Assembly (NCBI GenBank): GCA_029260055.1
Contig: JAJDDX010000324.1
Location: 1-42,672 of the forward strand
DNA: 42,672 nt
Direction: 5' to 3'
DNA from: Phycisphaerae bacterium
GTDB lineage: Bacteria; Planctomycetota; Phycisphaerae; UBA1845
Below are positions 2,478 through 34,039 of the stretch, piece by piece. Numbering within the stretch: position 1 is the stretch's first letter; every line of letters starts with the position of its first letter. The notes beneath the pieces are model-generated. The model saw nothing but the letters and a program-made list of their open reading frames with translations. It had not been told where the DNA came from and made no database searches. A program made the translations under genes and the position numbers.

Positions 2478-3049
2478 CAACGGCTCCTTACCGATCTTCC
2501 TACGAGCTTACGATTGACCGGTCCCATCCAGGGTACCGAAACCGAAGGAGAACGTCTCCCACTCGGCACGACAAGCCGGCCGCCTGCCGGCGAGACGCTG
2601 CCTTTCGATCACGGCCTTGGATTTCGATGAAGGCGATAGCACGGTACGCGGTCGGACCGGAACGTCAGCGGCCGCCTGTTTTTGGAAACCGTAGTCTGCC
2701 GTTGTTCGGGGGCTTTGCGGGCGGAAATTCCTGCTCGCGGGCAGGTACGCTACATCGAGCGTTCAGCGAGGGTTGTGTGAACTGGGCCCAGTAGGACTTG
2801 AACCTGCGACCTCGTCGTTATCAGAATGACCCAGTGCCTCGCCAAGAAACCTGAAAAACACTGTATTTATAGTAGTTTACACGCCTTCACCGAAAATGCA
2901 AGCCTTCGCATTGCACCCCGTTCTCGGGCAAATAAACGCGGTACCAACTCGCACAAACGGTAAAGTTCGGACGTTCTCCGCGTGCCATCTTTGCGCGTGA
3001 CTCGCCTCAACGAGCCTCGCTCGACGTCGAATCGCCCCTGAGTCTGAGA
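2478..3049. other. Gene-free stretch containing the left element boundary
   Basis: No convincing reading frame is seen on either strand. The only recognisable item is the 87-bp att-like repeat with a tRNA-Ile 3' fragment (2738-2824). Bases 2825-3049 are the first bases inside the proposed element; part of this is AT-richer (about 2850-2960). Confidence 0.6.
2738..2824 (-). repeat. Distal attachment site with truncated tRNA-Ile
   Basis: This is the copy of the 87-bp repeat far from the integrase. Bases 2783-2824, read on the minus strand, are the 3' half of tRNA-Ile starting in the anticodon loop. Compared with the right copy it has one change in the tail (base 2752 region) and one in the T stem near 2806. 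The T-stem change creates a C-A mismatch, consistent with drift in a non-functional remnant. Confidence 0.85.
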
Positions 3050-17692: not shown

Positions 17693-20600
17693 TCACGGCC
17701 CGAAGACGAGGTCTGTCGGCCACTGCAGTCCGCTTCCGATAAAGGAGCCAATGCTCGCGCCCGTCTCACCGTCGAATTCATGGACCTCACCACTGGAACT
17801 GTAATCGACTACCAACAGATTGCCATTCGGCCCGAAACCGAGACCATAAGGGTACATCCCGCCAGCACCGCTGGTAAACACGCGCAGGAAGGCGCCGGTT
17901 ACGCCGTCGAACACTACGACTTGCCTGGATCCGTGGAGGCTACTTACGTAGGTATTGCCGTCACGGCCGAACACCACTCTGACCGGCTTGTCGACGTGCG
18001 AATCGGCGGCGATGAAAGTGGTCGCATCGCCGTTGTCAAAGTCGTACCTTGTCACGGTCTTGGACCCGTAGTTCACGATGTAGAGATCGCCGTCAGGTCC
18101 GACCGTGACGCCGTGCGGTTGAGATAGCACTCCAGAGCCGATTGCCTCTCCGATGAACACGCCAGTTATGCCATCGTACTCAAGCAAACACTGTTGACCC
18201 TGACCCTCCACGACGAATAAGTTCATTTCCGGGCCCGCAAATGCCATGCCACGTGGGTGAGAGGGGCGTCCCGCGTTGGTTGTAATGAAGTCCCCGATCA
18301 GTTCTCCCGTGTGTACGTCGAATTCTCCAACGCGGTTGAACCTTGGATAGGAAACAAACAGATTACCATTCGGGCCGAAGGTCGCGCTTTCGGGATGATC
18401 TGCGGCGCCGTGCGTGAACACTGCAAGTAACTCGCCTGTGGTGCTGTCGTACTGCTTCACGTTGTTGCCCTCGTGGTTCACCACGAAGAGATCGCCCAAC
18501 TGGACGGACGGTCTGTTGGGTCCGGCCATGTCGGGCTCGAGTTCCGCCCAGTCATCCAGGTCCACGTCCCCATCGCCGTCGGCGTCAAACGTGTCCTGGC
18601 AGGCGGGAGATGGACCCGAGCCGTAGCACCGCTGGAACTCGTGGAAGTCTCGGAGATCGATGTCCCCGTCCCGGTCCCAATCGCCTGGAATGAACGGCGG
18701 ACAACCGAACTCATCAACTTCCGTATCGGGTATCGTGTCCGGGCAATCGTCGCAGCTATCGATGACGCCGTCCCCGTCACCATCCGATTCGCATTCGTCG
18801 GGGATGCCGTTCGCATCGCAATCCTGACTCAGCCCGCAGTCAGGGAGGTCGCATGGGCCGCCGCTAGATCCACACTCAATGTCGCACGCATCCCGAATGC
18901 CGTTACCGTTGCAGTCGTCATCTGCGTTGTCATCCATGTAGATGAACGTCCCACCAGAGGACTCGGCCAGGTCTTCCAGAAAGACGTAATCGGAGACGGC
19001 GGGCAGGTTACGGCTCCCACCGCCTTCGCGATCCTTGCCGCCACGCTGTCCGAAGGATTCCCAGAAGCGCGCCTGCGCAGTGACCCCGTTGTCGTGCAGC
19101 CTGTCGTACACTCTCTGCTGCCACGAATCGAGGTCGTAGTTGCCGGACGGCGGTGGGCCGCTGTCACTCCAGAAGCCGTCGCATTCGCCATCACTTGCGT
19201 TTTCGCCACCGTCCGTGCTGATCGCAAGCACCCGATCGCCGAGGGTCTCAACCGGATAAGATGCGACCAGATCATCGATCGCCTCGCAGATGCTCTCGGC
19301 GAGCGGCGTTTGTCCATCGCACCCGTCCGGTGCCAGGCCGTCGATGGCGGCAAGAGCCTCCGCTTCGCCAACAAACCCGGTGAGCGGCGTTGGCTCAGTG
19401 TTGGCGAAGGTCCAGACAGCTGCGGCACCCAACGGGTTGTCCGCGAAGAACGTAGAGACATCATCAGCGGCGTAGATCAACGCATCCTCGCAGCGGGTGT
19501 GGCCGTTGATGCGAGGCGTTATCATCGACCCGGTGCGGTCGATCAATACGAGCATGTGATCCGATTCGCATTCGTCAGGGATACCGTTGGTGTTGACGTC
19601 TATTGAGGGCAGCTCGTTCAGTTCACCGTCGAAGCTCAACCCTGCGCCAATGTTGAAGCTCCCGTTCGGTGACCAGACGTTGACGGTGACGGCGCCACCG
19701 GGGGTATACGGCTCGATGGTCCCACCGGTCCAGTTGAGCTGGCCATGGCCGTGGAACCCGATGTTGATCGTGTCAGCGATCAAGGTGCCCCCGGCCAGGT
19801 TGTACGTGCCGTCTGCGCCGCAGTTGACGCCGATGTAGAGTGTTTCTTGAACAGTGTCGGTTCCACCGATCTGCGTGATCTGGCCGGTGCCGTCAAGGCC
19901 AATGGTCAGGACGCTGCTGCTGACGTTCCCGTGCGTAATGTCCAAAGTGGAGACCACGCCGTCATATGCGCCCTGCCCGACGGTGAGGTGCTCAACCGCG
20001 ATGTCGCCTGCGATGTCGACCGCACCCGCCGGAGCATCAATGATGAAGTAATCCGTGCCGAGCAATTGGCCATGAACGCCACCATCCACGGAGAGCGTGC
20101 CTCCAGTGAGCCGATACGATCCCACTGCCCCAGCGGTCACACCGATGTGCAGATCACCGGTAACGTGCATTGTGCCGCCGGCTTGATTCACGGCCCCCAC
20201 GCCGTACTCGCCGACGCGCAGCTCACCGGCATCGAGCGTCGCACCGGCTCCAAGATCAAGCGTGCCGTCGGTCGAGAATGCTGCCCGGTTGGTGATTGCG
20301 TGGCTAGAGGAGCCGGCGAGTGTCACGTTGCTTTCGCTCTCGACGCGCAACTCGCCAGTGTCGATCGTCGCGCCATCTCGGAGATGAAGCGTGCCACCAG
20401 TGGAAATGGCTGTCAGATCTGTGACGGTGCAGGCGGAGATCCCGTCGAGCGTGACGACGCTGCCGCCCTCGACGCGCAGCTCACCGACATCGAGCGTTGC
20501 ACCGGCTGCAAGATGAAGCGCGCTGCCGGCTGAGAGGGCTGCCAGATCGCTCACCGTATAGGTGAAGATCCCGTCGAGCATGACGTCGCTCCCGCCCTCG

Positions 20601-21724
20601 ATCCGAAAATGCTTCGTAGTTGCGATGCCTGGCATCGTTACGATGTGCACCCCGGCCATGTCGAAAATGGCGGCTTGATATGCGCGTGGTACGCCTTGGC
20701 TCCAGTTTTCGGGTATGCTGAAGTCGCCGCCACCAGCGGTTACCCAGCGCTTTTCCTCGGCGATGACGTCGTTGATCCACGGGATATGTACGCTCACGCG
20801 CGTCGCGCGACCTATTTCATCGTAATAGCTACCGGGATTGCCGCAACAAATGCCGGAGTTAACACCGGCGAGCACGAGATTACCCGACTCCGGGGGGTGC
20901 TCGATAAACCAGCCGCCACCGCTATCTCGTTTCGCCATGTGGAATTCCGTTGGTAGAGGAATTGGGGAGCCATCAGTGAGCGTATTGATTCCATCGTTCT
21001 CGAAGCTGTCAAAGTCGGCCAGGATTAGGTTATCCGACCAATCGAAGGTGCCCCCGTAGGCGTCTATGTCGTTATGACCGCCAGCGGCTCCCCACATCTG
21101 GGGCTGCAAATACCAGTGTTGAGACGATCCGCCCTTCCCGTTCCCCCAGAACCCGAAGCCGACGATTAGCGCCGGCTTGCCCACTTCGTCGATGTCGATG
21201 TTCAGTGTGGCATGCTCAACGGTGCTGACCGGAAGGGCTAACCGGATAAGGGCCAGATCATAGCCGTCATCCGGCTCCATGGGGGAAAGGTCACCGGGCG
21301 GCACCAGCCACTTCTGGTGCACAATGATGAACGAAACATCGTACCTGTCTGGGTTTGGCACATTGGGATCATCGAAATCGAAGAACGTGCCAGCGGATGA
21401 AAGATCGATGTCATGAGCTGCGAATTCCGCGGCGTGGACAACGTGCGCCGCTGTCAGGATCCAGACGGGCGTGATTAACGTGCCGGAGCCTCGCGAAACG
21501 CTTCCGAGATGTGGGATGTCAAGCTCCAACCGCCCCACACTTGGGCAACTCTCGGCTAGGCTTTGGTATGGTGGATAATCTGGCGCCATGTCGTACTGAT
21601 ACGGATCTGACTCGCTCGGATCGTGTTGGATGACACCCGCTTGCGCAACCAAGCTCGCCCCCAACAAGATCATCCCGAGAAGACTCCGCCGGGCCAAGAA
21701 TCGCGTCTGCCCTACCTTCTGCAT
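17693..21724 (-). CDS. Secreted trypsin-like / VWA / dockerin / beta-propeller protein
   Basis: The 1343-residue product starts at ATG with GGAGGG 8 bases upstream (GTG at 21727 is the alternative). A signal peptide is followed by an S1 trypsin-type domain with a complete triad: TAAHVV near 92, DLALIRL near 156 and DSGGGW near 266. Three 43-residue repeats and further beta-helix repeats (autotransporter-like, GELRV and GGTL motifs) span about 370-690. A VWA domain with the metal-binding motif DRTGS lies near 728. TSP3-like calcium repeats and a type-I dockerin pair (GDWDRDGDIDLRDF and DADGDGDVDLDDW) are near 1014. A C-terminal NHL-like propeller (repeated FGPNGNL) spans about 1075-1343. It is a large exported modular protein; the protease target is unknown. 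Confidence 0.85.
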   Translation of the reverse strand: MQKVGQTRFLARRSLLGMILLGASLVAQAGVIQHDPSESDPYQYDMAPDYPPYQSLAESCPSVGRLELDIPHLGSVSRGSGTLITPVWILTAAHVVHAAEFAAHDIDLSSAGTFFDFDDPNVPNPDRYDVSFIIVHQKWLVPPGDLSPMEPDDGYDLALIRLALPVSTVEHATLNIDIDEVGKPALIVGFGFWGNGKGGSSQHWYLQPQMWGAAGGHNDIDAYGGTFDWSDNLILADFDSFENDGINTLTDGSPIPLPTEFHMAKRDSGGGWFIEHPPESGNLVLAGVNSGICCGNPGSYYDEIGRATRVSVHIPWINDVIAEEKRWVTAGGGDFSIPENWSQGVPRAYQAAIFDMAGVHIVTMPGIATTKHFRIEGGSDVMLDGIFTYTVSDLAALSAGSALHLAAGATLDVGELRVEGGSVVTLDGISACTVTDLTAISTGGTLHLRDGATIDTGELRVESESNVTLAGSSSHAITNRAAFSTDGTLDLGAGATLDAGELRVGEYGVGAVNQAGGTMHVTGDLHIGVTAGAVGSYRLTGGTLSVDGGVHGQLLGTDYFIIDAPAGAVDIAGDIAVEHLTVGQGAYDGVVSTLDITHGNVSSSVLTIGLDGTGQITQIGGTDTVQETLYIGVNCGADGTYNLAGGTLIADTINIGFHGHGQLNWTGGTIEPYTPGGAVTVNVWSPNGSFNIGAGLSFDGELNELPSIDVNTNGIPDECESDHMLVLIDRTGSMITPRINGHTRCEDALIYAADDVSTFFADNPLGAAAVWTFANTEPTPLTGFVGEAEALAAIDGLAPDGCDGQTPLAESICEAIDDLVASYPVETLGDRVLAISTDGGENASDGECDGFWSDSGPPPSGNYDLDSWQQRVYDRLHDNGVTAQARFWESFGQRGGKDREGGGSRNLPAVSDYVFLEDLAESSGGTFIYMDDNADDDCNGNGIRDACDIECGSSGGPCDLPDCGLSQDCDANGIPDECESDGDGDGVIDSCDDCPDTIPDTEVDEFGCPPFIPGDWDRDGDIDLRDFHEFQRCYGSGPSPACQDTFDADGDGDVDLDDWAELEPDMAGPNRPSVQLGDLFVVNHEGNNVKQYDSTTGELLAVFTHGAADHPESATFGPNGNLFVSYPRFNRVGEFDVHTGELIGDFITTNAGRPSHPRGMAFAGPEMNLFVVEGQGQQCLLEYDGITGVFIGEAIGSGVLSQPHGVTVGPDGDLYIVNYGSKTVTRYDFDNGDATTFIAADSHVDKPVRVVFGRDGNTYVSSLHGSRQVVVFDGVTGAFLRVFTSGAGGMYPYGLGFGPNGNLLVVDYSSSGEVHEFDGETGASIGSFIGSGLQWPTDLVFGP
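20213..20599 (-). repeat. Three 129-bp tandem coding repeats
   Basis: Three consecutive units with a 129-bp spacing (unit marks at 20313, 20442 and 20571) encode 43-residue beta-helix turns. Each carries a VTLDG-like start, a hydrophobic T/L-rich strand, a GATLD or GATID turn and GELRV. They are part of the trypsin/VWA gene and indicate internal duplication. Confidence 0.75.
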
Positions 21725-22018
21725 CACTCTATCCCTCCTGCGATCGTCGCAGTATACGAACGGCTGCGGAGCGGCATTATCGCGCCGGACACTGGTTCAC
21801 TGATCTGGCAAGCGATCGGGGCAGGTGAATCGAGCGCGGAAAAAGCGAGAAGTTCGGCGAAACGCGTGTGGAGCCGCATTGAGGCGGCTCATGGTGGGTC
21901 CACGGCTTCTCCGTACGTCCGTTTGGCGGTGGCGGAGGGGCCGTTGCAGAGCGCCTTCTGGGCGATGGATCACTCTGGGGAATCCGTGGTTCCTGGCCAG
22001 CGCTGCCCGTGCGCGGGC

Positions 22019-23420: not shown

Positions 23421-26012
23421 TCACAACCTTGGGTCGACCGGCTCGCTTTCCATAGCGAGCACGCCGAAGGCACATTCGTGAACGCGGCGGAGCGGTTCGC
23501 GCTGCACGAAGCGTTCGAGGCTTTCCACTCCCAGGGCGAACTCGCGCAGCGCGAGCGACCGCTTCGTGCTCAACGAGCGGTTACGCAGTCTTTCGAGGTG
23601 TTCGTCAGCGGTATACTCCGCCCCATAGATGATCCGCAGGTACTCGCGGCCGCGGCACTTCAACGCCGGTTGCACGCGACCGTTCTTGCCTCTTCGGATG
23701 AAAGCCAGCGGTTTGACGACCATGCCCTCGCCGCCGCGTTCGGTCAGCTCCGACCACCAACGACATCCTTCGTCTTCACTTTGCGGGTCAGCGAGGTCGA
23801 CGAGTCTGTTCGGCGTTGCCAGCAGCAGTTCTCGTTCGGCGTCGCAGAGCCGGGCGAGCGTCTCCATGTGCCAGGTGTGATCCTTGTCGGTATGAACCGC
23901 GCCCTCGCTGGCGAGGATGTGAAACGGTGCGAGCTTCAAGTCGGATACCGATGCGACCGGCCAACAGTACTGGCGGTAGGCGTCCACGAACTTCGTCGCG
24001 CACTCGCCCTTCGAGCGGTATCGTTCGAGTAATCCGTCCAGGTCGCAGCCGCGCGTCGCCGTCAGAGCCAGAGCGTCCACCACATCAGGAATGGCAGCTC
24101 GCGCGGCGGCACCGACAGCGGCGTACTGGCTGCGAAGCAGTTCCTGGGCCTTAGCCGACCACGGCATCAACTCGCAATCCAGGCAAAGCCAATCCGTGTC
24201 GAGTTCCTGCCACAGCCCGGCCCGCTCGATAGCCGTGTTGATCCGGAGCAAGAACTCCGCCTCGGCCGCTTCGTCGTTGAAGAACCGCCGTCCGGTCCGC
24301 GTATAGCAGGTGCCGATGCCCTCGTCAGCCACCCCGAAGCGCGCCCGTGCCGCGTCCTCGTCGCGGCAGACGATCACGACCGCGCGCGACCCCATGTGCT
24401 TCTGCTCGCAGATTACCTTGTCGATGCGCTGACGCCGGAAATAGGCAAACGCCTCGGCTGGATGCTCCAGCAAGCCCGGTTCCTTGGATGTCTCGCTCGG
24501 CGACATCGTTGGCGGCAGGTAGATCAGCCATTTCGGGTTGACGGCGAACCGGCTCATCACCTCCAGCGCGGCGATACTGTTTTCCTCGCGAATCGTGACG
24601 CTGCTGCGCAGGCGGGTCGTGATGATCCGCTTGCCCGTCACGTCGCCGATGTCGAGCAGGTCGTCGTGTTCCTGCTGCGCCGTCAGTGCTGCGTCGGTCG
24701 CATCACCGACGGGGAACGGCTTGGGCGATTCGACGTAGACTTTAGCCGCCGGCACCGAGACCAGCTCACGCTCGGGGTATCTAAGCGCCGTGAGCTTGCC
24801 GCCAAAGACGCAGCCGGTGTCTATGTTGATGGTGCGGTTGAGCCATTCCGGCTCCGGCACAGGTGTGTGGCCATAGACGACCGAGGCGCGTCCGCGATAC
24901 TCCGACGCCCAATTGTATCGGATCGGCAGGCCGAATTCGTCGGTTTCGCCCGTCGTCTCGCCGTAGAGTGCGAACTCACGCACCTTTCCCGATCCACGCC
25001 CCTGCATCTCCTCCTTCATCCCCGCGTGTGCGACCACGATCTTGCCGTCGTCCAGCACGCAGTGGCTCACGAGCGAGTAGATGAACTCGGCGAGTTGGTC
25101 GCGGAATGCCGCGGCGATGTCCTCCGGCAGGGCGTCGAGTTCTTCGACCGTTTGGGCCAGGCCGTGCTTGATCTGCACGTCCCTACCGCGCAGTAGACGA
25201 TGGAGCTTCATGTCATGGTTGCCGGGTACGCAAAGGGCGTGGCCGGCCTTGACCATGTTGTGGACGAGTCGGTAGCAGTCGAGGACGCGCGGACCGCGAT
25301 CTGCGAGATCGCCGAGGAAGACTGCTCTTCGTCCTTCGGGGTGGGCATAGACGGGGCCGCTGTCGAGAGTCTGTCCCTCGCGCCGCTGGGTGACTTCGTA
25401 GCCGAGTTCGCCGAGCAGCGTTTCCAGTTCGTCGCAACAGCCGTGCAGGTCGCCGATGATGTCGAACGGGCCGCGTTCGTGTTTGAGGTTGCTGTAGAGT
25501 GGCGTGCGCTCGATTGCGGTGATGGCGTCGACCTCTTCGACGCTGCTTAGCTTGTGGATCTGGCGGAAGCCCTCGCGCTTCAGGCCTCGGAGGCCGCGTC
25601 GCATCTGGCTGACTTGTTGAGCGACGACACGAGCTCCGAAGTTCCGATCCGCCCGCTCACGGTTGCGCTCGACGCAGACGTCCTTGGGAATGTCCAGCAC
25701 GATGGCGACGGGCAGGCAGTGGAAGTCCCGCGCCAAGTTGACCAGCGGCTTACGATCCTCAGGCCGAATGTTGGTCGCGTCCACGACGGTGAGCCTGCCG
25801 GCAGCGAGGCGCTTGCGGGCGATGAAGTGCAGCACTTCGAAGGCATCGACGGTGGCGGCCTGGTTGTTTTCGTCGTCGGAGACGAGGCCGCGGCAGTGGT
25901 CGCTCGACAGCACCTCGGTTGGTTTGAAGAGCTTGCGCGCGAACGACGACTTGCCGGACCCGGATGGTCCGATGAGGATGACGAGCGAGACTTCAGGAAG
26001 GCTGAGATTCAC
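23421..26012 (-). CDS. pnkp: Polynucleotide kinase-phosphatase-ligase (RNA end healing and sealing)
   Basis: The 863-residue product has the full length and domain order of bacterial Pnkp. The 5' kinase has P-loop GPSGSGKSS at 15-23. The central binuclear metallophosphoesterase (2',3'-phosphatase) has GDLHG near 186, GDLADRG near 234, GNHD near 263, a VVAHAG segment and YGHTP. The C-terminal ligase/adenylyltransferase has nucleotidyl lysine motif KHMGSR near 538. Pnkp repairs RNA cut by ribotoxins: it phosphorylates the 5'-OH, removes the 2',3'-cyclic phosphate and, with Hen1, ligates. The start is GTG, overlapping the upstream stop as GTGA, with GGGAG 10 bases before it. It is the last gene of the three-gene operon. 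All catalytic motifs appear intact. Confidence 0.95.
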   Translation of the reverse strand: MNLSLPEVSLVILIGPSGSGKSSFARKLFKPTEVLSSDHCRGLVSDDENNQAATVDAFEVLHFIARKRLAAGRLTVVDATNIRPEDRKPLVNLARDFHCLPVAIVLDIPKDVCVERNRERADRNFGARVVAQQVSQMRRGLRGLKREGFRQIHKLSSVEEVDAITAIERTPLYSNLKHERGPFDIIGDLHGCCDELETLLGELGYEVTQRREGQTLDSGPVYAHPEGRRAVFLGDLADRGPRVLDCYRLVHNMVKAGHALCVPGNHDMKLHRLLRGRDVQIKHGLAQTVEELDALPEDIAAAFRDQLAEFIYSLVSHCVLDDGKIVVAHAGMKEEMQGRGSGKVREFALYGETTGETDEFGLPIRYNWASEYRGRASVVYGHTPVPEPEWLNRTINIDTGCVFGGKLTALRYPERELVSVPAAKVYVESPKPFPVGDATDAALTAQQEHDDLLDIGDVTGKRIITTRLRSSVTIREENSIAALEVMSRFAVNPKWLIYLPPTMSPSETSKEPGLLEHPAEAFAYFRRQRIDKVICEQKHMGSRAVVIVCRDEDAARARFGVADEGIGTCYTRTGRRFFNDEAAEAEFLLRINTAIERAGLWQELDTDWLCLDCELMPWSAKAQELLRSQYAAVGAAARAAIPDVVDALALTATRGCDLDGLLERYRSKGECATKFVDAYRQYCWPVASVSDLKLAPFHILASEGAVHTDKDHTWHMETLARLCDAERELLLATPNRLVDLADPQSEDEGCRWWSELTERGGEGMVVKPLAFIRRGKNGRVQPALKCRGREYLRIIYGAEYTADEHLERLRNRSLSTKRSLALREFALGVESLERFVQREPLRRVHECAFGVLAMESEPVDPRL

Positions 26013-27148
26013 GGATTGTCTGCTCCCCGATCGATCTCGCTGACTATCGCCTGAGTAGATCTTGAGCGCATAAGTAGATTCTGTAGAAGGGCCGTCGCTC
26101 GATCTGCTAGGCGGTCGAAGCCGATGATCTCTACTGAACCGCGTCTTGAGTCGTTTTCTGCATGGAGTCGCGCCCGTTGTTTCGCGTTGAGGCTTGACTC
26201 CATTCCGACTACGGCGATCGCATGTGGCGACTGAAGATCGGGAAACTGCTGCACGGCGTAGAGCCGGTTATCGACTAGCCACTGGCGGTATTCGAGAGCC
26301 TGCCGCACCGCTTCGGTCGCCGCGGCGGATAAGTTCCCTGATTTCGTCATCAGTAAATCGCCGGGTGATTCTATCTCCACGACGCGGTATGAGTTATCAA
26401 CCTGCTGCACGACGAAATCCGCGACGAGTTCTTCACCAAGACGCGGCTTTGACCAAGTCCGAAGCTGCAAGGGATTCAGCAAGTGGGGCTCGGAAGCCAG
26501 GAACTGGTGCACTTCCTCCTCGATGGGCTCTCTAGCAAGCAGCGCGCGGTAGTCCTGGATGCCCGCATCGTTGATGCGGAACCAACCTGTTAGCATAGCC
26601 TCGAAGAGCTCTGCGCTTGGACTCCGGCCTTCAGGTTTCTCCAGGTTGTCGGGAATCGCCAAGGCGTTAAGTGCAGAGACAAGATCCCACGACAGCTCCG
26701 ACTCGGCGTCCACGCCCGCTGCAAGTCGCGTCAATTGTCCGCGAGCAAGTTCGCGAGTGTTGTGGGCACTGCTCAGTTCTTCCTCCAAGTCAGGTGCCTT
26801 GTGACACCAGATGCCCGCCAAAGTTCCCTCCGTTCCGGCCGCGAAGTGCGCAAGTGTCTGAATCGCTACAGACCGCGAACTGTGTCTTTCCGTCCTAAGT
26901 CCGCAATCGGCTAGGGCCGCAAATCCGTCTGATCCGAAGACGCCACACGCAAGTGCGGATGTGTATTTCTGATGCCACTTGAACGTCCATCCGCCATAAT
27001 CGTGATCGACCATCTCGGCCAGTAGCGCAAGAGCCTCGCCTGTGCCGACCTTCAGGCAAGCTCGAATACCCTCATTCGTCTGCTCAGGCGAACAGCCATC
27101 CGAGAGGACCTTCTGCCGCAGCTCGTTCAGATCCGTAGCGTCGCTCAT
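26009..27148 (-). CDS. Helical protein with DUF4263 (Shedu-type) nuclease-like domain
   Basis: The 379-residue product has about 200 helical, HEAT-like residues with no recognised motif. A C-terminal alpha/beta domain (about 205-350) has the DUF4263 pattern of the PD-(D/E)XK superfamily. Visible elements are EEEVHQFLASEP (helix with E211/E212), LGEELVADF (D244), VVEIESPGD (E258, with E260 where K is usual), TKSGNLS, and an A-RQALEYRQW helix (Q283). Shedu SduA, an antiphage nuclease, has this fold. It overlaps hen1 and pnkp by 4 bases on both sides (ATGA and GTGA), so translation is coupled and a joint function with RNA repair is likely. The domain call is by motif reading; whether it still cuts, and cuts DNA or RNA, is not shown. 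Confidence 0.75.
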   Translation of the reverse strand: MSDATDLNELRQKVLSDGCSPEQTNEGIRACLKVGTGEALALLAEMVDHDYGGWTFKWHQKYTSALACGVFGSDGFAALADCGLRTERHSSRSVAIQTLAHFAAGTEGTLAGIWCHKAPDLEEELSSAHNTRELARGQLTRLAAGVDAESELSWDLVSALNALAIPDNLEKPEGRSPSAELFEAMLTGWFRINDAGIQDYRALLAREPIEEEVHQFLASEPHLLNPLQLRTWSKPRLGEELVADFVVQQVDNSYRVVEIESPGDLLMTKSGNLSAAATEAVRQALEYRQWLVDNRLYAVQQFPDLQSPHAIAVVGMESSLNAKQRARLHAENDSRRGSVEIIGFDRLADRATALLQNLLMRSRSTQAIVSEIDRGADNP

Positions 27149-28545
27149 GTGGTGAACACTCCCATCTGCGTCGGCGAGCCGACCTCCTCATCCTCTGGGC
27201 CTACCGGAGCGAAACGCACTGAGTACCCGAACCGCTCAGCCACGCCGCCGGCCCATGCCTGGAACTCCGCACGGGCCCACTCGAAGCGGTGATCCTTGTG
27301 CCGTAGCTTTCCGGCTGGGAGGGTATCGAAGCGCACGTTGTATTCCACGTTCGGCGTGGTCACGATCACGGTCCTCGGCCTGGCGCACTCGAAGACTACT
27401 CGCTCGAAGGCCGCAAGGCGTGGTGCGTCGAGGTGTTCGATCACCTCGACGACGGTGGCTGCATCGAAGCCGGCCAATCGCTCGTCGCGATACATCAGCG
27501 AGCCGTGGATCAGCTCGATCCGCTCTCGCTGTTTGGGTGGCATGCGATCGAAGTTGAGGCGGCGTTGCGCGATCTCCAACGCGCGATACGACACGTCCAT
27601 CCCGACGATCCGCTCGAACGACCTGTCCGCGAGCAGGAGTTTGAGCAGCCTGCCTGCGCCGCAACCCAGATCGACCACGCTCTTCGCACCGGCTTCCTTC
27701 AAAGCCACAACCACCGCCTCCAGTCGCTGATCGTTCAGTCGCAGCGTCGCTTCGACGGCCTCCTCTTCGGCAGCGTGAGCTTCTTCAACCTCGTCGGCGT
27801 CGGGACTTTCCTCCTCGATGAGTCGGTCGAGTGCGGCCCTCATCAGCCCGGTTCGATGTTTGAGGTAACGGCGGGCGATCAGTTCCTTCTCGGGATGCGA
27901 CTCCAGCCACCCCTCACCCTTGGCCAGGAGTTTGTCGACCTCGTCGTTGCCGACCCAATAGTGCTTGTCGTCGTCGAGCACAGGAACCAGCGCGTAGAGG
28001 TGCGAGAGCAAGTCCTGCAGTCGGCATTCAGCCGTTAGCTCGACCGTGTAGTACGGGGCTTCCCCCCATTCGGGGAACTTCTCATCGAGCGGATGGCATG
28101 TGGCCGTGACACGGTATCCAAGCGGCTCGAAGAAACGGTGCAATAGAACCTCGCCACCGCGACACGGCACGACGCTAATCTTGGCCGTAAGCGGGATCGG
28201 CTGTTCGACCAGATCCGCCCTCTGCTCACAGCGTCCGCCCAATGCAGAGCCGAACACGCGCGAGATAGCCACGCTCATCAGCGACGAGGCGACGTAGGGC
28301 CGATCGTTGACGTATTGCCGGAGCTGGAAGCCCTCGCCGGCGGGTCCGCGGCGGTTGCGGACCAGTCCGATCGGATCGACATCGAGCAACAGGGCAGCCG
28401 TGCAGCGGTCCTCGCCGGACTCCGGGTAGAAGACGTGGGCTTTGCCGAACGGCAAATCGAAGCTCTGGCACCGATCCGGGTGTTTGTGCAGCAGATAGCC
28501 CAGGTCGCCTGCGGGAGCATGGGTAGTGGAGATCGTCAGTAGCAT
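27145..28545 (-). CDS. hen1: RNA 3'-terminal ribose 2'-O-methyltransferase Hen1
   Basis: The 466-residue product has the bacterial Hen1 layout: an N-terminal half (about 1-240) that in known systems activates the Pnkp ligase, an acidic linker, and a C-terminal methyltransferase. The latter has AdoMet motif VVDLGCGAG near 293, the metal motif EVIEH near 368, and RHKDHRFEW, which supplies the further His of the Hen1 metal site. Hen1 methylates the 2'-OH at the repair junction before sealing so the same ribotoxin cannot cut again. It is the first gene of the operon, followed by the DUF4263 gene through an ATGA overlap. All expected catalytic residues are seen. Confidence 0.94.
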   Translation of the reverse strand: MLLTISTTHAPAGDLGYLLHKHPDRCQSFDLPFGKAHVFYPESGEDRCTAALLLDVDPIGLVRNRRGPAGEGFQLRQYVNDRPYVASSLMSVAISRVFGSALGGRCEQRADLVEQPIPLTAKISVVPCRGGEVLLHRFFEPLGYRVTATCHPLDEKFPEWGEAPYYTVELTAECRLQDLLSHLYALVPVLDDDKHYWVGNDEVDKLLAKGEGWLESHPEKELIARRYLKHRTGLMRAALDRLIEEESPDADEVEEAHAAEEEAVEATLRLNDQRLEAVVVALKEAGAKSVVDLGCGAGRLLKLLLADRSFERIVGMDVSYRALEIAQRRLNFDRMPPKQRERIELIHGSLMYRDERLAGFDAATVVEVIEHLDAPRLAAFERVVFECARPRTVIVTTPNVEYNVRFDTLPAGKLRHKDHRFEWARAEFQAWAGGVAERFGYSVRFAPVGPEDEEVGSPTQMGVFTT

Positions 28546-28913: not shown

Positions 28914-29996
28914 TCACGCTGAGATGGTGCAATCTGTCGCTCCAAGCTCGCCGGGAGACTCCGCTGCACTGGGTGGTCCTGCGCCAGACCCTCCACGAGC
29001 CCGGTCTCCCCTGTAGGAATTCCAAACGTACGCCCTTACCCCCGGATGCTGGATGGGGTCGTCCATGGCTTCAGCGGCTCGGCAGCTTTCTGGGGTCACG
29101 CGATCCATCGCGCGTTGCACGTAACCCGCGAGGCGCTCGGGCGGCAAGTTCGCCAGTTCTTCGAGAACATCCGAGCGCTGCTGGTCGACGTGCCGTGCGT
29201 GCTCCCGAGTTTTTCGGTGGAAGGCCTCGCTCTCACGGGCACGATGGCGCTGCCGTTCCTGGGAGCGATCGTGCTCGCCCGACTCGTGGGACGCCGAATA
29301 GCCGTTCCGCAACGCCGATGTGATCCATCCGAGCCGATTCGTGATGACCCCCCTCGCAGTCTGTCGATCGCATTCCCGGATCACCTCCTCGACGCGCTCG
29401 ATTGTCGCTCCGGTCTCAGCCGCGAGCCTCTGAGCGGAAGCCTCATCGAAGCCGGCTTGCTCCAAGCGCAGGACGACAGCACTCTGTTTGTCTACTTCTC
29501 TACTTGTATCTAAAGAGTGCCCCGATTCTGACTCAACGCTTGCAGCATTGGAAGCACAACCTTGATCCAATTCAGAACAAGGTTGTTCGGATTCGACATA
29601 AGGTTGTGCTGATTCGGCATAGGGGTTTTCCTGGACCATGCGGTACTTGTTGACTTGCCGGCCCTCGCGTCGACCCGGGGCACGCCCGGAATACCTCACG
29701 ATGAGCCCCTGTTTCTCAAGCTCTGCGACGGCCCCAAAAACTGTCTGATCTCCCACGCCCGCGGAAGCCGCTATTCGCTTGGCGGTCACTTCGCACTCGA
29801 ACGTCGTGAAATCGGCAAACTGCCACTACGCAAGGTAGACCTTCGTCGCGCTCCCAGACAGACTTGCCAGGAAACCGCCCACGATTACCCAATGAGGTAC
29901 GCGAGCGAAGTGGTCACCCGCGTCCGCGGCACGAGCCCGCTGCTCGGCGGTCGGGACGTGTTGGCGCGCGCCCGCGCCCTTGTTAGACTTGGCCAT
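28914..29996 (-). pseudogene. Winged-helix replication-initiator-like gene interrupted by TAG
   Basis: One frame of 361 codons starts MAKSNKGAG at 29996 and runs to 28914. It is broken by a single in-frame TAG at 29826-29828. Before the stop it reads HWVIVGG...SGSATKVYLA. Directly after it continues FADFTTFECEVTAKRIAASA and GDQTVFGAVAELEKQGLI, a winged helix-turn-helix of the replication-initiator type. The stop falls where the family usually has Leu, so one TTG to TAG change explains it. The rest is hydrophilic, with Glu/Gln-rich and Arg-rich stretches. An internal GTG at 29789 could yield a product lacking the first helices. Alternatives are readthrough, an amber suppressor or a sequencing error. 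Confidence 0.7.
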
Positions 29997-30056: not shown

Positions 30057-30356
30057 TTAGAATCCAAGGTCCCTCAGCTCTCGCTCAGCATCCTCCGCTG
30101 CACGCTCTGGTGTTGGCTGCGACCCCGCGGGCGGCGCGTGCGGATGCGTAAGCTGGTCGCAGAACCGCTGAAGCGACTCGACGCTGGTGCAGAGGGTCCC
30201 GCCTACGCGGATGACTTCGAGCTTGACGCCTCGACATCCGCGCTGAGCCCACCGGAACAGGGTGGACACATGGGGACGCTTACCGGATCGCCGCCGCGGC
30301 AGGTGGGCCGTAGCGTTGTTGAGCGATATGACTTCTTCATTCGTTAGATCGATCAT
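30057..30356 (-). CDS. DUF1580 family DNA-binding-like protein
   Basis: The 99-residue product starts MIDLTNEEVISLNNATAHLP and has RRRSGKRPHVSTLFRWAQRG, the conserved core of DUF1580, a family found in planctomycetes. It resembles a MerR/excisionase-type helix-turn-helix that reads a promoter or att site. GAGG lies 7 bases upstream of the ATG. It sits 60 bp before the interrupted initiator-like gene on the same strand. In an integrative element it could be the excision factor or regulator; that role is inferred. Confidence 0.85.
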   Translation of the reverse strand: MIDLTNEEVISLNNATAHLPRRRSGKRPHVSTLFRWAQRGCRGVKLEVIRVGGTLCTSVESLQRFCDQLTHPHAPPAGSQPTPERAAEDAERELRDLGF

Positions 30357-32669: not shown

Positions 32670-33851
32670 CTATCCGATCTTTGCGGCGATCTGCGCCGCG
32701 GTTGAGCGATCCGTCTCCGCATAGATTTCCGTCATCATGGGCGATCGATGGCCCAGTAGAATCCGCGCGGCCTCGATGCCGTGGTCCTTCCGTACGCGGG
32801 TTGCGAAGTTGTGACGCAACTGATGCGGATGCCACCGCGGCACGTTGGCTTTGTCGCACGCCCTTCGTATCGCACGGCGATAGCTGTCGCGATCGTAGAA
32901 CTCCCGCGGTGGCCGCTTGGGGCTGCGCTTCGGGGTCCGCTTCGCCTGACTCGGGGTCATCGGTGACTTGCGGTTCTGACGGCGCTCCTCATTCCGTGCG
33001 GCCTCGGCGTCGCGAGGGTCGAACAGGTACGCCTCGACCTCCGCCTTGAGGAACGGCCTGATCACGTCCTGAGCCTTCGGACCCAACTCGACGATGCGTA
33101 CGTGATCGTAGTGCTCGGTCTTGTGGCTGGATGGACGGTAGATCCAGACGTCTTCGGTCATATCGATCTCGCAGCCGCGCATGATCGTCACCTCGCCCGA
33201 CCGCATCCCGGTGAGTCGCTGCAGCTCGATCATGGCCCAGATCTGTGGAGCCACGTGCTCCTTGACCGCATCCACGTGTTCGTCCGGCCCCGGCCTAACG
33301 CGCGATCCCTCGGACGCCTCGGTACGCCCGCGCCTCAAGCCGGTCACGGCCTGAAGCGCCTGGTATCTGCTTGGATGAACAAGTTCGTTCTCGACACCCC
33401 ACCGGAACATCCGCTTGACCCGCCCCGCCTGGTCGTTCGTGTACTTGCGGCCGTGCCCGGCCCTGACCATCTCGTCACGAACGACCTTCAGCGCGAGTGG
33501 CCCGAAATCATTTGCGGGAGTTCGGCCGTACAGCCTCGCCACGGGCCGCATCGTGCAGCGGATCTTGTTGACCTCATCCGTAAGCTTGCCGTTCTTTCGG
33601 TGGTAACTCTCGGCATGCCGGTAGTAGGCAACCACCAGCTCAGCGACGGAGATCCCGTCTTCGGACTGGGCGCGAACTGGGATCGCCCGGCCGTTGGCCA
33701 GCCACTCGCCAATCAGGCGATCGTACTCGTTGCGGCTTTCGTCGGTGCCGTGCTTCCCGAGGTAGAAGTCCCGTGCGCCGAGCGTAACGATGGCTTGTCC
33801 GGACTCTCGATGCAGGCGATACCGGGGTACGTGATTCTTGGACCAGGGCAT
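32670..33851 (-). CDS. Tyrosine recombinase/integrase of the tRNA-Ile element
   Basis: The 393-residue product has an N-terminal arm-binding part (about 1-75), a core-binding SAM-like domain (about 75-175) and a catalytic domain. The catalytic residues are visible: Arg in TGMRSGE near 214, HQLRH near 343, LLGHRS and the nucleophile Tyr in TEIYAE near 375. An unusual Lys/Pro/Arg-rich insert (QAKRTPKRSPKRPP) precedes the HxxR motif. GGAGG lies 6 bases before the ATG. It sits 70 bp from the att repeat overlapping tRNA-Ile and reads away from the tRNA, the usual position for an integrase that uses a tRNA site. Confidence 0.95.
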   Translation of the reverse strand: MPWSKNHVPRYRLHRESGQAIVTLGARDFYLGKHGTDESRNEYDRLIGEWLANGRAIPVRAQSEDGISVAELVVAYYRHAESYHRKNGKLTDEVNKIRCTMRPVARLYGRTPANDFGPLALKVVRDEMVRAGHGRKYTNDQAGRVKRMFRWGVENELVHPSRYQALQAVTGLRRGRTEASEGSRVRPGPDEHVDAVKEHVAPQIWAMIELQRLTGMRSGEVTIMRGCEIDMTEDVWIYRPSSHKTEHYDHVRIVELGPKAQDVIRPFLKAEVEAYLFDPRDAEAARNEERRQNRKSPMTPSQAKRTPKRSPKRPPREFYDRDSYRRAIRRACDKANVPRWHPHQLRHNFATRVRKDHGIEAARILLGHRSPMMTEIYAETDRSTAAQIAAKIG

Positions 33852-33921: not shown

Positions 33922-34008
33922 CGGGCAGGTACGCTAAATCGAGCGTTCAGCGAGGGTTGTGTGAACTGGGCCCAGTAGGACTTGAACCTACGACCTCGTC
34001 GTTATCAG
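33922..34008 (-). repeat. Proximal attachment site overlapping tRNA-Ile
   Basis: This is the second copy of the 87-bp direct repeat. Its right end falls in the anticodon loop of the intact tRNA-Ile and its left end 45 bp past the tRNA 3' end. Crossing-over in the anticodon loop is typical for tRNA-directed tyrosine recombinases. Confidence 0.85.
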
Positions 34009-34039
34009 CGACGCGCTCTGCCAACTGAGCTATGAGCCC
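33967..34039 (-). tRNA. tRNA-Ile (GAT)
   Basis: The complete 73-base cloverleaf has acceptor GGGCTCA/TGGGCCC (one G-U), a D arm with AGCTCAGTTGGCAGAGC, an anticodon loop with CTGATAA giving GAT, variable loop AGGTC, and T arm GTAGG/CCTAC around TTCAAGT. The discriminator is A and CCA is not encoded. The 3' half is supplied by the element's repeat and keeps all pairs, so the gene stays functional after insertion. Confidence 0.96.

Follow-up and report, generated by a model that had tools for sequence, protein, structure and literature searches.

The RNA-repair operon and its middle gene

The 42,672-nt contig JAJDDX010000324.1 of a Phycisphaerae bacterium (assembly GCA_029260055.1), analysed here over its whole length and referred to as the window, carries three open reading frames (ORFs) on the minus strand in the order hen1, a middle gene and pnkp. 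The first, hen1 (27145-28545, minus strand, 466 aa, ATG start), encodes a 3'-terminal RNA ribose 2'-O-methyltransferase with an N-terminal Hen1_L region, the part of Hen1 associating with Pnkp. The last, pnkp (23421-26012, minus strand, 863 aa, GTG start), encodes a polynucleotide kinase-phosphatase with a C-terminal ligase-type adenylyltransferase domain, and the middle, or cargo, gene between them (26009-27148, minus strand, 379 aa, ATG start) encodes an SduA_C protein. The hen1 stop and the middle start overlap by 4 nt in ATGA (27145-27148, minus strand), and the middle stop and the pnkp start by 4 nt in GTGA (26009-26012, minus strand); judged by their common strand and these overlaps, the three genes form one operon. 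A first-pass annotation, made from the letters of this DNA alone, had listed three minus-strand genes with 4-bp ATGA and GTGA overlaps, and both coordinates and overlaps agree with it. The identities it gave to Hen1 and Pnkp were likewise borne out by the equivalogs TIGR04074 (748 bits, cut-off 340) and TIGR04075 (1428.8 bits, cut-off 750), along with a PF12623 match of 389.6 bits in Hen1 and the Pfam domains PF16542, AAA_33 and Metallophos in Pnkp. The hen1 gene of the operon gives the single Hen1_L match in the genome, and SduA_C occurs once above cut-off, with a second match, below cut-off, on another contig.

The middle gene had been assigned to the DUF4263 type, which is the same as SduA_C (the SduA models of PADLOC are labelled 'DUF4263 domain'). 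Indeed, residues 210-347 (26108-26521, minus strand) match PF14082 SduA_C with 44 bits (cut-off 27) and the best PADLOC match is SduA (6e-24); no NCBIfam model scored over its cut-off. Comparison of a predicted model with solved structures supports the nuclease fold suggested in the first-pass annotation, in that the protein is predicted to adopt a PD-(D/E)XK fold like that of solved Shedu. By fold, the nuclease domain comes closest to Shedu, followed by FokI, Nt.BspD6I and EndoMS, and Can2 ranks below these among distant matches. A first model, built on a six-row alignment, was not used (predicted local distance difference test score, 52). As regards the N-terminal DNA-end clamp of type I Shedu, the alignments with chains 8ps4/8ps5 start only at residue 183 of the model. 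The N-terminal region (residues 1-189; 26582-27148, minus strand) is all-helical in predicted secondary structure and matches designed helical repeats and HEAT proteins; because such fold matches are easily come by, a HEAT/alpha-Rep-like class is only indicated.

Four residues, D244, E258, E260 and Q283, are unchanged in the six-row alignment of the window protein and five full-length relatives at 33-37% identity. D244 (26417-26419, minus strand) is the predicted active-site Asp and, like Q283 of a QxxxY motif (Q283 and Y287; Q283 at 26300-26302, minus strand), is invariant in nine of nine aligned SduA_C proteins. E258-I259-E260 (26369-26377, minus strand) forms an E-x-E motif where canonical Shedu has E-x-K, with both glutamates invariant in all six rows. 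The Shedu chain 8ti8 reads EIK at this site, and 8ti9 has Ala at the position of E258. With E260 in place of Lys, the protein is therefore classed as a Shedu-like SduA_C protein belonging to an E-x-E branch and kept apart from canonical Shedu. BamHI, by comparison, has Glu at the position of the canonical Shedu lysine and is an active enzyme. E-x-E is also found in six further Planctomycetota SduA_C-type sequences (L127, L129, L136, L137, L138 and L139), of which five were scanned and all five exceeded the SduA_C cut-off. The branch raises a testable question on Shedu catalysis. Four of the six are ORFs of 196-246 aa, too short to hold a HEAT-like part.

Relatives of the middle protein were sought in protein searches that each scored only about 8,000 candidates, those sharing most words. 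Two of them returned three and four relatives from metagenomes, and a further one added five SduA proteins of the E-x-K type. The sole full-length relative with readable context lies in a Bacteroidia metagenome-assembled genome (JALHRL010000035.1; L040:7998-9077), as the last gene after those for an Eco57I-type methylase, a BsuBI/PstI-type endonuclease and an IrrE-type helix-turn-helix protein, having 1 nt in common with the preceding gene; no hen1 or pnkp match was found in the 9.6 kb examined around it. A profile of the middle protein recovered at full length only the window among 114 genomes of the order (four partial matches) and among 392 genomes of the phylum sample (five partial matches). 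Viral contigs held no relative of the middle protein, and plasmids gave one partial SduA_C match, in Planococcus.

The hen1-pnkp junction and its cargo

Hen1_L was found in 41 of the 392 phylum-sample genomes, 21 of the 100 nearest relatives, 22 of the 114 genomes from the order and 40 of the 397 in a class sample, the four samples overlapping. From these, 40 + 19 + 1 + 13 loci were fetched, giving 74 examined loci with the window, of which 60 were assessable in that the end of hen1 and the start of pnkp could both be read. Fourteen were left out as broken, lacking a nearby pnkp or running off the contig (L053, L060, L079, L080, L108, L115, L122-L124, L150 and L152-L155). Genome G433 (L135), with Hen1_L below cut-off and two stops, was dropped, as tblastn gave no hen1. 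SduA_C stands between hen1 and pnkp in one of the 60 assessable junctions of the phylum, that of the window. PF14082 was run on the phylum sample and the middle-protein profile on the phylum sample and the order; other phyla were covered through plasmids and the one relative in L040. Beside the window's genome, the phylum sample has 40 genomes with hen1; six of these have an SduA_C match, in no case near hen1 (a different contig or a distance of 0.4 Mb or more). The first-pass annotation had suggested that hen1-DUF4263-pnkp may be a defence system that both cuts and repairs, or one whose nuclease serves as backup to failed repair, and had named recurrent linkage in unrelated hosts as support for a system; a fixed three-gene Hen1-Shedu-Pnkp system was rejected in this sample, because SduA_C is absent from all other assessable hen1-pnkp junctions.

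The length of the junction varies widely, with 44 of the 60 below 300 nt, three at 300-700 nt and 13 above 700 nt. In the family to which the window belongs, all eight assessable loci (the window, L107, L109, L111, L112, L113, L114 and L121) carry inserts, seven of them above 700 nt, compared with six of 52 junctions above 700 nt outside the family; the eighth, L111, has a 354-nt junction with a 113-aa ORF that overlaps hen1 by 4 nt and abuts pnkp. Cargo was typed by Pfam and PADLOC, and ORF lengths were counted from the first start codon, which may lie inside hen1 (L107, L114 and L121 among them). Within the family, the slot holds a 1234-aa ORF without Pfam match that resembles the later part of Dsr1 (L121; 110 bits, profile positions 575-1096 of 1227), a 333-aa protein with a PIN protein (L112), an IrrE-type protein with a 482-aa protein (L109), a partial DUF1963 (L107), a 357-aa ORF without match (L114) and, in L113, RhuM, a 345-aa ORF, RlaP, an ADP-ribosylglycohydrolase, a second RlaP, a DSP phosphatase and a 391-aa ORF.

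Elsewhere, L043 carries RlaP, AbiEii, RlaP, a HEAT protein and two ORFs without match, L052 two RlaP around an R2K ATP-grasp (assigned by 80-81% identity to the L043 RlaPs), and L044 an RlaP with a second RlaP-type frame, judged by eye as was an apparent RlaP remnant in L068. A common family of 311-326 aa without match, at 55% identity, fills the slot in L045 and L062; the L145 junction has no same-strand ORF of at least 75 aa. The HEAT protein of L043 (L043:2217-3527) and the 482-aa protein of L109 (L109:8869-10317), from distant Hen1 lineages, are homologous (25% identity, 8e-39), and each gene stands directly before pnkp and overlaps its start by 4 nt. In L120 (genome G488, of the same order as the window), a 250-aa NucS_C protein (43.5 bits) of NucS_C/DUF7669 architecture overlaps the pnkp start by 4 nt; with an SduA_C match of only 19.1 bits against the cut-off of 27, this is, by its domain matches, a different, independent PD-(D/E)XK nuclease of NucS type in the same slot. 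Among 17 plasmid records listing both genes, inserts of more than 1.7 kb occur in Deinococcus gobiensis and D. ficus, which have the order hen1-RlaP-RlaP(-X)-pnkp, most gene borders being 4-nt overlaps; the junction measures about 345 nt in Streptomyces BHT-5-2, crosses the record start in Hymenobacter and is below 80 nt in the other 13. In D. taeanensis, hen1 is followed by RlaP and a nucleotidyltransferase gene, and the stretch examined contains no pnkp. As judged from gene content, the hen1-pnkp junction is a variable slot with many alternative cargo genes.

Alignment of close relatives further indicated that cargo is exchanged between conserved borders. The window's hen1 and pnkp share 75-85% DNA identity with those of L113 (whose contig ends within pnkp), L114 and L121; homology ends at 27153-27155 and resumes at 25999, with no match between. 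The same break is seen, at lower identity, with L107, L109, L111 and L112. In a Hen1 tree computed by a quick method with SH-like approximate likelihood ratio test (SH-aLRT) support only, and with partial rows for L053, L077, L109, L112 and L121, the window, L113, L114 and L121 group together at 100 (SH-aLRT) while holding four different cargos. At least nine changes of cargo state are needed over the 56 labelled rows; cargo is present in 18 of these (counting L068, L083 and L111) and absent from 38. A second hen1 3' end at L113:4703-4792, with 83% DNA identity to hen1 of L113, lies between RhuM and the remaining cargo, as would be expected if cassettes had been stacked by recombination in hen1, which its position suggests. 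GC content at third codon positions (GC3) is 0.621 in the middle gene and 0.764 and 0.795 in its two neighbours.

Two broken loci were also encountered. In L060 (genome G299), hen1 residues 1-273 continue as pnkp residues 85-863, and the Hen1_L match of that genome (L023) lies inside one open frame of 1045 aa, apparently a natural fusion by deletion. In L124/L134 (genome G427), the matches are limited to the first 47 hen1 codons and about 24 pnkp codons, which lie 3.6 kb from each other, and the locus appears to be a decayed operon of the same family as the window.

The tRNA-Ile flank of the operon

The window has the signature of a tRNA-associated genomic island, namely an integrase adjoining a tRNA and a directly repeated copy of the 3' end of that tRNA. 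A phage-type integrase gene (32670-33851, minus strand; PF00589, 57.3 bits) lies 115 nt from a tRNA-Ile (GAT) gene (33967-34039, minus strand; ARAGORN; Rfam RF00005, 72.5 bits), the likely attachment-site gene. An 87-nt direct repeat, made up of the tRNA 3' half and flanking sequence, has its right copy at 33922-34008 (plus strand), containing that 3' half, and a left copy, 97.7% identical, at 2738-2824 (plus strand), a putative other island end. The operon lies inside the 31-kb span between the copies and is probably part of a tRNA-Ile island. The true element may be shorter than 31 kb, since much of the left part of the span resembles ordinary chromosomal genes (a kinase, an ECF sigma factor and lectin-like proteins). 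Between hen1 and the integrase are the genes for a helix-turn-helix protein (28914-29789, minus strand; 368 nt upstream of hen1), with MarR/Crp-type matches all below cut-off, and for a DUF1580 small protein (30057-30356, minus strand; PF07618, 52.8 bits). An integrase at L049:4564-5892 (genome G337) shares 36% identity with that of the window and lies about 0.1 kb upstream of a hen1 whose slot is empty.

Two Hen1 loci were found in viral contigs; L141 has no Pnkp match at E<1e-20 and L142 has one upstream of hen1. Phages gave four weak Hen1 matches, all below 33% identity. Elsewhere in the window, three tandem repeat copies spaced by 129 nt occupy 20212-20608, inside the ORF at 17693-21727.

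Probable exchangeable cargo in a repair operon, and alternatives

Hen1-Pnkp operons, their RlaP-bearing versions and Shedu are already known. According to PMC4411300, Hen1 and Pnkp always share one operon and together repair and methylate cleaved RNA, the 2'-O-methylated product resisting the same ribotoxin. The window matches the bacterial operon in both equivalogs and in gene order, and differs by a third gene between the two that overlaps each by 4 nt. For Shedu, a review (PMC12904381) states that EcSduA senses and cuts DNA ends and that Shedu can be toxic in foreign hosts. Compared with SduA of E. coli (8ps4/8ps5) and B. cereus (8ti8/8ti9), the window protein has SduA_C over cut-off and the predicted PD-(D/E)XK fold; unlike them, it reads E-x-E and not E-x-K, shares only 16-19% identity with the solved chains, has a HEAT-like N-terminus left unaligned with their known N-terminal parts, and sits inside a repair operon. 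The hen1-RlaP-RlaP(-X)-pnkp loci (Deinococcus plasmids, L043, L052, L113 and, in part, L044) resemble the window in their extra, mostly coupled genes in the slot, whereas their cargo includes RlaP nucleotidyltransferases and no SduA_C. The hen1-NucS_C-pnkp order of L120 has a PD-(D/E)XK protein in the slot and the 4-nt overlap with pnkp, the protein being of the other architecture noted above. The ADP-ribosylglycohydrolase of L113 recalls a Deinococcus ligase-PARG-kinase operon, proposed, in PMC11833690, to clear ADP-ribose from nucleic-acid ends. In the literature searched, whose incomplete coverage is no proof of absence, neither a Shedu-like nor a NucS-type gene is described as lying between hen1 and pnkp; no publication on Shedu with RNA repair or on Hen1 with defence islands was found, and no title or abstract opening among those on Hen1/Pnkp and on Shedu linked these two subjects. 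RNA-repair modules are reportedly shuffled in general (Burroughs and Aravind, 2016).

Combining the coupled gene order, the SduA_C domain and the unrelated cargo bordered by core genes in close relatives, all read directly from the DNA, we favour, at a probability of roughly 0.45, a Hen1-Pnkp operon with a Shedu-like predicted DNA nuclease in an exchangeable slot, its three proteins likely being made together as one anti-phage unit. Co-translation would give matched protein amounts; the Shedu-like protein would attack and cut invading DNA, and Hen1 and Pnkp would reseal and 2'-O-methylate RNA broken in the same infection by ribotoxins or tRNA-cutting defences. Cooperation of nuclease and RNA repair is what we infer from this arrangement. 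The operon would move on the tRNA-Ile island, and recombination within its two conserved core genes, hen1 and pnkp, would bring in new cargo. On the sequences compared, the repair kit is likely a carrier for swapping defence genes, a chassis for RNA repair whose cargo can be exchanged and is often defence-like. More tentatively, and with doubt outweighing confidence, Hen1-Pnkp may be a mobile chassis that has a place for effectors built in, where anti-phage nucleases and other effectors are swapped by core-gene recombination to be made in step with the enzymes that mend the cell's RNA and immunise it. Since the cargo list mixes RNA-repair accessories and defence-like genes, not every cargo need act alike.

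RNA repair and phage nucleases are usually studied separately. If the more tentative mobile-chassis reading is true, cutting for defence and repairing for survival come together in a single unit that can be exchanged, the cargo in this genome being a Shedu-like nuclease of the E-x-E type. A slot that takes nucleases, toxins and repair accessories makes the combination of repair with defence accessible at the level of genes, and it predicts the sites of undiscovered effectors, candidates being the ORFs of 311-391 aa without Pfam match over cut-off in L045, L062, L112, L113 and L114.

Several results weigh against the anti-phage unit and its mobility. The slot is below 300 nt in most sampled loci (44/60), much of its cargo is not defence-like but RNA-repair-like (RlaP) or without an assigned function, the lysine of canonical Shedu E-x-K is not present, E260 standing in its place, and chance capture is possible for a Shedu-like cargo seen in one operon only. 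Among 62 loci searched, the window's integrase family lies beside only one other hen1 locus, L049, and shared mobility of the other operons is therefore not established. A tRNA-Ile adjoins the right-flank VIT/VWA gene in one of six relatives' loci (L161, genome G402), at 94.7% over 76 nt and followed by tRNA-Pro, with no match to the window's integrase; none was seen in the other five. The window's left flank has no match in L161 and lacks synteny in G401, and in L156 the M50 synteny is broken, so that an empty island site is not established.

An explanation of considerable standing, though somewhat unlikely in our judgement, is that the slot is merely a tolerated landing place in a mobile operon, where an autonomous Shedu-like defence gene gains expression and works independently of Hen1 and Pnkp. 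SduA_C in a single junction of 60, the contrast in GC3 between the middle gene and its neighbours, and the full-length relative in L040 behind methylase, endonuclease and IrrE-type genes, away from any hen1 or pnkp match in its 9.6 kb, are what such a passenger would leave; it accounts less well for stop/start overlaps on both sides of the gene, for insertion precisely between two core genes and for the recurrence of RlaP pairs in the slot in Planctomycetota and Deinococcota, which makes a function likely for at least some cargo.

The same RlaP cargo, being RNA-repair-like, and the place of the middle gene inside a repair operon would also suit a PD-(D/E)XK domain that acts on RNA, or on RNA and DNA, to prepare ends for Pnkp. 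Can2 is among the distant fold matches of the domain, but it ranks below Shedu, FokI, Nt.BspD6I and EndoMS, and no RNA-specific feature was found in the middle protein, making an end-trimming role improbable. Slightly less probable again is a pseudo-nuclease that, with its catalytic lysine replaced by E260, senses ends through the HEAT-like domain and scaffolds the repair enzymes, a role that homologous HEAT-type cargo in L043 and L109, coupled to pnkp by 4-nt overlaps in distant Hen1 lineages, would fit. Loss of activity is contradicted by the activity of BamHI with Glu at this position, by D244, E258, E260 and Q283 being invariant between the window protein and its five relatives at 33-37% identity, and by the recurrence of E-x-E in the six further Planctomycetota sequences, where all five scanned pass the SduA_C cut-off; these points speak against a pseudo-nuclease.

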